Below, piece after piece: positions 26,191 through 26,296 of a DNA stretch of 37,997 bases (the first letter of the stretch is position 1; each line of letters begins with the position of its first letter). The stretch is from contig JAUXQB010000229.1 in NCBI GenBank assembly GCA_030685215.1, forward strand, positions 1-37,997, read 5' to 3'. The translations under genes were made by a program, and so were the position numbers. Source of the DNA: Actinomycetota bacterium (GTDB lineage: Bacteria; Actinomycetota; Acidimicrobiia; Acidimicrobiales; Ilumatobacteraceae). The notes under the pieces were generated by a model that saw nothing but the letters and a program-made list of their open reading frames with translations, did not search any database and had not been told where the DNA came from.

Positions 26191-26226
26191 GGAAAAAGCA
26201 AGAAGCCCCGGCCTCGGAGGCTGGGG
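26191..26226 (-). terminator. Intrinsic terminator of the leuA attenuator
   Basis: On the minus strand CCCCAGCCT and GAGGCCGGGG-type arms (26226-26206) form a 9-bp stem with one G-U pair and a 3-nt loop, followed by CTTCTTGCTTTTT (26205-26193). It lies between the leader peptide and the leuA start. Confidence 0.8.
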
Positions 26227-26231
26227 CGTGC

Positions 26232-26261
26232 GGGCAAGCGCGAAGTATGTGGCGCTTGCCC
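26232..26261 (-). promoter_or_regulatory. Perfect 10-bp hairpin of the leuA leader
   Basis: GGGCAAGCGC and GCGCTTGCCC pair perfectly around a 10-nt loop. The stem begins at the last base of the leader-peptide stop codon and ends 5 nt before the terminator stem, where a pause or competing hairpin would be expected. Confidence 0.75.
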
Positions 26262-26296
26262 TACATAAGCAGAAGGAGGCCACGGGTGCGAGTCAC
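26261..26296 (-). CDS. leuL: leuA leader peptide with four consecutive Leu codons
   Basis: The ORF reads GTG ACT CGC ACC CGT and then GGC CTC CTT CTG CTT ATG TAG, giving 11 residues, [11 protein letters not shown]. Four adjacent Leu codons sit just before a perfect hairpin and an intrinsic terminator. This is the classical layout of ribosome-mediated attenuation: the ribosome stalls on Leu codons when charged tRNA-Leu is scarce. The frame differs from that of leuA. No strong Shine-Dalgarno precedes the GTG (a weak GGCAG only). Confidence 0.78.

Follow-up and report, generated by a model that had tools for sequence, protein, structure and literature searches.

A leucine leader peptide, an abutting hairpin and a terminator form a putative attenuator upstream of leuA in Acidimicrobiia

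Transcription attenuation is taught as a contest of two RNA folds over the same bases. The region upstream of leuA in contig JAUXQB010000229.1 of an Actinomycetota bacterium (37,997 nt in all, hereafter the window) raises the question of how an attenuator could switch when its two hairpins have no bases in common. A sequence-only reading of the window had described a complete leuA leader-peptide attenuator, and direct reading of the minus strand confirmed both its coordinates and its parts. We favour, with real reservations, the view that this element is a ribosome-mediated transcription attenuator that senses charged leucyl-tRNA, and that its first hairpin (hairpin 1) acts as an antiterminator by abutment on the terminator.

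On the minus strand the parts follow one another in the order promoter-like motifs, a leader that starts at GTG, a perfect 10-bp hairpin, a 4-nt linker, an intrinsic terminator and leuA. A -35-like TTGACA (26328-26333) is separated by an 18-nt spacer from a -10-like CAGACT (26304-26309), which lies 7 nt 5' of the leader start codon. GTTGACA occurs at the -35-like position in 12/12 same-genus upstream regions, the window counted. A generic sigma-70 scan reported no promoter; it misses the TTGACA motif, and CAGACT fails its consensus. The start codon is so close behind the -10-like motif that the leader mRNA is likely to be leaderless. The leader ORF itself (26261-26296) reads, from 26296 to 26261, GTG ACT CGC ACC CGT GGC CTC CTT CTG CTT ATG TAG, which bears out the earlier description of an 11-residue Leu4 leader; the sensor codons CTC CTT CTG CTT occupy 26267-26278. 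Hairpin 1 (GGGCAAGCGC-CACATACTTC-GCGCTTGCCC; 26232-26261) starts on the G of the TAG stop codon. Its arms (26261-26252 and 26241-26232) form 10/10 pairs around a 10-nt loop, so the hairpin is as perfect as had been claimed. Its folding energy is -20.6 kcal/mol, which corresponds to z = -5.64 in a comparison with 200 shuffled sequences. The linker GCAC (26228-26231) leads into the terminator stem-loop (GCCCC, A, GCC, loop, GGC, C, GGGGC; 26205-26227), as parsed from the sequence, and then into the U-rich tail TTCTTGCTTTTT (26193-26204). The previously reported terminator with a T-rich tail was thus upheld for the stem-loop, but the run of T residues is interrupted. The ATG of leuA, at 26145, lies ~60 nt past the terminator stem, with a candidate Shine-Dalgarno sequence, AAGGA (26156-26160), 10 nt 5' of it. 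The regulated gene, leuA (24439-26145), encodes a 2-isopropylmalate synthase by profile match (TIGR00970/PRK03739; TIGR00970 E = 4.8e-243). The adjacency of stop codon, hairpin 1 and terminator, and the promoter-like motifs, go beyond what the sequence-only reading had described.

We scanned both strands of the 38-kb window with a detector for a stop codon, an abutting hairpin and a terminator, and the leuA leader was the single match. The same detector was positive in 61/79 leuA upstream regions from the host's family and in 0/395 codon-block shuffles. Together, the uniqueness in the window and the contrast with the shuffles indicate that the layout is not due to chance. None of 4227 Rfam families matched the window at the gathering score, and the sole match at a relaxed threshold (E = 6) lay outside the element.

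To describe the element across the host's family, most likely Ilumatobacteraceae within the Acidimicrobiia, we used upstream regions of genes found with TIGR00970, which had matches in 146/150 family genomes; 80 regions were sampled, chosen mostly as full-length genes with upstream sequence, and the window was added to give 81. The leader ORF is kept in 79 of these 81 regions, each with a run of 3-5 Leu codons, exactly one further codon, a stop and an abutting hairpin; the refuting condition named beforehand, a leader ORF that is not kept in relatives, therefore does not apply. Variation in the leaders is confined to the part of the peptide before the Leu run, with run, stop and hairpin all constant. 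A terminator was also parsed in 78/79 elements (median -18.5 kcal/mol), separated from the hairpin by a linker of -1 to 6 nt and from the stop codon by 26-35 nt (median 29 nt, 78 elements). Two regions, G011 and G013, failed the strict Leu-run search; the covariance model described below found in G013 a leader with an interrupted run, MRLLPLLGLLT followed by a stop. In a further region, G004, the leader and hairpin are kept and the U-run is absent. We built an alignment (A1) and a covariance model (R1) from 65 of the 79 elements. This analysis of related leaders, which had been suggested as a check on the attenuator, revealed that hairpin 1 covaries: 96.7% of cells in the 65-sequence alignment are paired, and 5/9 pairs have changes on both sides. 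Hairpin 1 and the terminator together account for 116 double-change cells, compared with a mean of 27 after shuffling and with 11-24 when the pairing was slid.

Several further features of the family leaders are constrained. The last Leu codon is CTT in 79/79 leaders (26269-26267 in the window), although in 60 ilvB and cimA genes of the family 7.0% of the Leu codons are CTT and in the window's leuA 0/42 are; the invariant CTT could reflect selective charging of one tRNA-Leu or a constraint on the RNA. The leader stops are TAG in 58 cases, TAA in 20 and TGA in one, whereas the 60 ilvB and cimA genes end in TGA (47), TAG (9) or TAA (4), and the choice of leader stop codon fits the geometry of the hairpin. 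A TAnnnT motif lies 6-11 nt 5' of the leader start in 65/79 regions (mode 7), compared with 1.5% at random upstream positions, a comparison in which each try allowed one position in the control but as many as two start codons in the real sequences. SD-like tetramers precede only 7/79 leader starts. The proximity of TAnnnT to the start and the scarcity of SD-like tetramers suggest that the family leuA leaders are probably translated from leaderless mRNA. The hairpin-1 loop (26242-26251 in the window) includes CATA in 56/78 leuA elements, and several ilvB and cimA loops have it as well. We considered a kissing contact between this CATA and an AUG before the stop and rejected it: CATA is present in 22/32 elements with ATG and in 25/37 with ACN, and so does not track the codon.

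The same layout precedes two other branched-chain genes. In the window's own genome, a weak R1 match (E = 0.55) lies directly upstream of the citramalate synthase gene cimA, where the leader ATG TCG CAC ACC AGC GTT GCG ATC ATC ATC ATT TGC TAG (MSHTSVAIIIIC, then stop) is followed by a hairpin and a terminator. A further match (E = 0.0016), upstream of the acetolactate synthase gene ilvB, has the leader MRANHTLELVVLIV with a TAG stop, a hairpin and a terminator. We therefore sampled 30 family loci each for ilvB and cimA, out of 35 and 38 matches. Leu/Val/Ile leaders whose run ends at the stop or one codon before it were present at 26/29 ilvB loci; 21 of them have a simple abutting hairpin, and the other five have bulged inverted repeats identified by eye. 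Ile leaders, with an Ile4 sensor, were present at 22/30 cimA loci, and the hairpin begins on the G of TAG in 22/22. Shuffled controls gave 0/290 for ilvB and 0/300 for cimA. By contrast, the layout was present at 0/29 loci of trpE, which belongs to a different pathway, drawn from 31 genomes with a match, and these loci had no Trp leader either. The stop-to-terminator spacing is 24-31 nt in 17 ilvB elements and 21-30 nt in 11 cimA elements. Hairpin sequences differ among leuA, ilvB and cimA, and the distance from the last sensor codon to the hairpin is 5 nt at all three genes when one codon and TAG intervene. The feature conserved across the three genes is the geometry, not the sequence of the hairpin. 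Since ilvB and cimA are preceded by this layout too, with different sensor codons, the element appears, judged from these sequences, to be a modular ribosome-mediated attenuator with exchangeable sensor codons.

We searched these elements for a base-pair antiterminator, such as the one on which E. coli leuL, trpL, hisL and thrL rely. Like the elements described here, those leaders encode a peptide with control codons and have an intrinsic terminator downstream of it. We folded RNA to the end of the 5' terminator arm, masking the part covered by a ribosome placed on each of the sensor codons in turn or at the stop, and calculated the probability that this arm is held upstream, taking a difference of at least 0.4 (stalled minus stop) to mark an antiterminator; partial transcripts were folded at equilibrium, and pseudoknots escape the calculation. 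None of 106 elements (78 leuA, 17 ilvB and 11 cimA) reached a difference of 0.4, with median stalled/stop values of 0.10/0.21 for leuA, 0.19/0.19 for ilvB and 0.27/0.42 for cimA. By contrast, all four E. coli controls did so, the stalled state holding the 5' terminator arm in the antiterminator with values for thrL, leuL, trpL and hisL of 0.74, 0.55, 0.62 and 0.55, and of 0.00, 0.00, 0.00 and 0.07 at the stop. Equilibrium folding of full elements performed more poorly, in that the parser missed 17 elements and odd terminator stems were returned in others. Attempts to prolong hairpin 1 into the terminator arm gave no pair in 105/106 elements and 1 bp in the remaining one; among the 78 leuA elements no hairpin-1 pair reaches into that arm, which extends to the family the earlier observation that the two hairpins do not overlap. 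These results make it unlikely that the element is a classical trp/leu-type attenuator whose antiterminator, sharing sequence with the terminator, we have failed to draw, even though this is the textbook mechanism, the element has the leader ORF, control codons and terminator that it requires, and mutually exclusive hairpins are proposed for mycobacterial ilvB1 in the accessible text of PMC13236596.

A different switch had been suggested from the complementarity of GGCCTC in the Leu run to GAGGCC in the terminator. The complementarity is exact, and the two segments pair in the equilibrium fold of the naked window RNA. We found no sign that this pairing is conserved: at its six column pairs, standard pairs occupy 40.6% of cells compared with 42.5% after shuffling and with 90.6% for the hairpins, and the longest helix between Leu run and terminator arm averages 6.55, compared with 6.24 with shuffled Leu runs. 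Moreover, a ribosome that is stalled or at the stop would cover the Leu run, so that the pairing would favour read-through only when no ribosome is present; the mean pair probability of the window terminator is 0.25 without a ribosome and 0.98 with a ribosome in either position. We regard a switch of this kind as scarcely credible. With the folding, hairpin-extension and pairing-conservation tests all negative, our modelling indicates that no base-pair switch is visible in the leuA, ilvB and cimA elements.

We propose instead that hairpin 1 is an antiterminator that would work through its position next to the terminator, as a steric block or retractable spacer, and would need no bases in common with it. 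The leaderless leader mRNA would be translated at once. With ample leucine, the ribosome would pass the four Leu codons to the UAG stop, where its front edge would lie over the next ~10 nt, that is, the 5' arm of hairpin 1, and keep that hairpin open; the terminator ~30 nt downstream could then fold freely, and transcription would end before leuA. With scarce leucine, the ribosome would stall at the Leu codons and hairpin 1 would fold directly in front of it. The helix of hairpin 1, flush on the base of the terminator, could not share the polymerase exit channel with it, and since the hairpin ends 0-6 nt short of the terminator, stalled ribosome, hairpin 1 and zipped terminator would have no joint room at the polymerase RNA exit and leuA would be read. 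Termination, the response to leucine, the direction of regulation and the steric step are all inferred from sequence; the direction, with leucine shortage leading to read-through, would be the correct one for a biosynthetic gene.

The spacings of the elements can be compared with what is known of ribosomes near terminators. While hairpin 1 is open, the stop-to-terminator spacer measures 21-35 nt in the family's 106 elements. Folding of this hairpin would bring the terminator to 5-11 nt from the stalled codon if that is the last sensor codon, and to 14-20 nt if it is the fourth from the end. Upper figures for the coverage of a ribosome past the A site reach 12 nt, so that a ribosome on the first Leu codons would not touch the 5' arm of hairpin 1. 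The accessible text of PMC4824070, which also discusses the pyrBI attenuator, gives a footprint of ~10 nt past the A site and reports for E. coli that termination is ~90% when the stop codon lies 28 nt before the terminator and <10% when it lies 5 nt before it, and that a close stop codon no longer represses when translation is absent. In those ribosome-repressed terminators, as in our proposal, the nearness of the ribosome decides termination; as described there, they are without a regulated spacer hairpin and without sensor codons for charged tRNA. The distances given in that part of the source are 27 nt and a minimum of 10-15 nt, a rule from E. coli. Some cimA elements (21-25 nt) and 12/40 further parsed elements (20-25 nt), not all of these 40 being independent of the 79 (L301 is G013), have spacers under 27 nt and so weigh against abutment, although they exceed the 10-15 nt minimum. 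The spacer series in PMC4824070, as accessible, disagree with each other (~0.8 at 18 nt, ~0.12 at 17 nt), and a stall on the first of the four Leu codons would leave 14-20 nt, in the range of this disagreement, which is a weak point of the proposal. A further point against abutment is that the base of hairpin 1 would be melted by the ribosome itself if the stall occurred on the last Leu codon, and the conserved CNCAUA loop and the invariant CTT are outside what the abutment model accounts for. In the accessible text of PMC13236596, the LVVI codons of M. tuberculosis ilvB1 are required for induction, and its terminator and antiterminator are described as mutually exclusive. This description counts against abutment, as does the report that tandem hairpins strengthen termination at M. 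smegmatis gyrA, as cited in the accessible part of PMC8355165.

The same adjacency could mean that hairpin 1 is a mere pause (synchronisation) hairpin or one half of a tandem terminator, with leucine control, if any, lying elsewhere. Classical attenuators contain a pause hairpin. Adjacent hairpins are reported to be efficient terminators (PMC8355165, in its accessible part). If hairpin 1 strengthened termination in this way, however, a stalled ribosome would lower leuA expression when leucine is needed, which is the wrong sign. Neither version gives a reason for the 5' arm being the very stretch that a terminating ribosome covers, or for the fixed spacing between sensor codons and hairpin at leuA, ilvB and cimA. 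On balance, we consider a pause hairpin or tandem terminator improbable, though worth serious attention.

A leuA leader with a Leu run is already known from other actinobacteria as the LEU element, described by Seliverstov et al. (2005; PMC1262725); both this element and S. lividans leuL1 (PMC8079986) lie upstream of leuA and encode a short peptide with a Leu run, and Streptomyces lividans is reported to have leaderless Leu leaders (PMC8079986), all according to the accessible parts of these sources. As described in the accessible part of PMC1262725, the LEU element has no terminator, its Leu run pairs with the leuA Shine-Dalgarno sequence, a pseudoknot is involved, and its peptide continues past the Leu run (for example MRFGLLLLSCRGEGL, then stop). 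By contrast, the element described here has two abutting hairpins, the second of which is the terminator, and its Leu run ends one codon before the stop. Besides the shared gene and the same kind of leader peptide, there is some reason to think of translational control by the LEU mechanism, in which stalling would free the Shine-Dalgarno sequence: the AAGGA before leuA is complementary to UCCUU in the Leu run of the window, and the longest Leu-run/SD helix is 4.81, compared with 4.25 after shuffling, in the 47/79 regions with a located leuA start, which exclude the window's own. Such control would leave unexplained an intrinsic terminator kept in 78/79 elements. In addition, R1 matched just upstream of leuA at 27/80 named leuA loci, which repeat at least six of the family loci already counted, and none of the 27 is from the named genera with LEU-type leaders. 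We therefore consider translational control of the LEU type very unlikely here, and retain transcription attenuation by abutment as the preferred reading.

In wider searches, R1 had matches in 166/296 genomes of the class Acidimicrobiia (E <= 0.01) and in 26/296 genomes of a phylum sample (E <= 1e-4), three of the latter outside the class. These three (L288, L289 and L290) lie upstream of leuS, identified by reading the translations, with leaders ...SLLLT, ...MGLGLM and MRWNLLLR, each before a stop. The leuA element resembles Streptomyces leuS attenuators in having a leaderless Leu leader, a hairpin and a U-run, and the two may share an origin; for the Streptomyces attenuators the accessible parts of PMC1262725 and PMC8079986 report a classical antiterminator and a leader with more codons after the Leu run (MRAVRLLLSEPR, then stop). 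Two in-class matches (L293 and L295) precede the other leuA type, again identified from the translations. Two Acidimicrobiales records with upstream sequence (L131 and L145) had no R1 match before leuA. Loci from named genera such as Mycobacterium, Micromonospora, Nocardioides and Microbacterium instead have leuA leaders with several codons after the Leu run, for example MPFGGLLLLSCRDES or MLLLGRRDGV before the stop, as does the published LEU element. Separately, the leuA leaders of many other Actinobacteria (L116-L171) have a conserved basic/acidic tail such as SCRGEGL, RCRDEA or GRRDGV, which marks the LEU element.

The arrangement at ilvB may extend further. When we folded four related mycobacterial ilvB leaders, the antiterminator hairpin lay 4-5 nt past the last sensor codon and 0 nt from the terminator in 4/4; a single RNA was predicted to accommodate both hairpins, the first of which was lost only when a ribosome stood at the stop. 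Branched-chain sensor codons are likewise described for the Mycobacterium ilvB1 attenuator in the accessible text of PMC13236596; there the leader ORF contains the 5' arm of the hairpin, downstream of the sensor codons, whereas in the leuA element, at a different gene, this arm begins at the stop. Among 16 ilvB loci from 12 other actinobacterial genomes, a leader and a terminator were present in seven, and the hairpin directly meets the terminator in six of these; at L307 the gap is 3 nt under an alternative ribosome mask. The layout in Serinicoccus is LVLI-T-TAG-hairpin. Hairpin and terminator overlap by at most 1 bp in the seven loci, as checked on RNA including the terminator, and stalled-state sequestration of the terminator arm is predicted at values between 0.01 and 0.65. 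By this modelling, a base-pair switch may operate in Nonomuraea (0.65), Dactylosporangium (0.46) and Planotetraspora (0.44).

We tentatively suggest, with less confidence than for the leuA element itself, that these attenuators form a class across Actinomycetota with its barest form in Acidimicrobiia: an 8-12-bp hairpin that follows the sensor codons at ~5 nt and borders directly on the terminator would be folded or melted by the position of the ribosome and would block the terminator sterically without competition for bases, the sensor codons being exchangeable cassettes (Leu, Ile or Leu/Val/Ile). Earlier work has described the LEU element as well as ilv attenuators in actinobacteria. In the openly accessible literature we recognised nothing on Acidimicrobiia leader attenuators, a cimA leader or attenuation by an abutting hairpin, a scope that leaves aside most subscription papers, among them the study of S. 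coelicolor leuA to which PMC1262725 refers. Clade-wide attenuators at three branched-chain genes, conserved and covarying, show no visible base contest. If abutment alone is the switch, it would be a compact and predictable design, with sensor codons, stop, hairpin and terminator in ~100 nt. It could also account for the difficulty of fitting the leuA and ilvB leaders of actinobacteria to the classical model, and the ribosome distance needed to silence a terminator would become testable with a single spacer.

Between the leuA promoter and the upstream gene, an inverted-repeat search identified two overlapping 22-nt inverted repeats in 26342-26439, with arms at 26342-26363/26418-26439 and 26361-26382/26417-26438; these are perhaps the terminator region of the upstream gene or an operator. 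That gene (26448-28175, minus strand) encodes a protein with saccharopine dehydrogenase NADP-binding and C-terminal domains, which we take to resemble homospermidine synthase.
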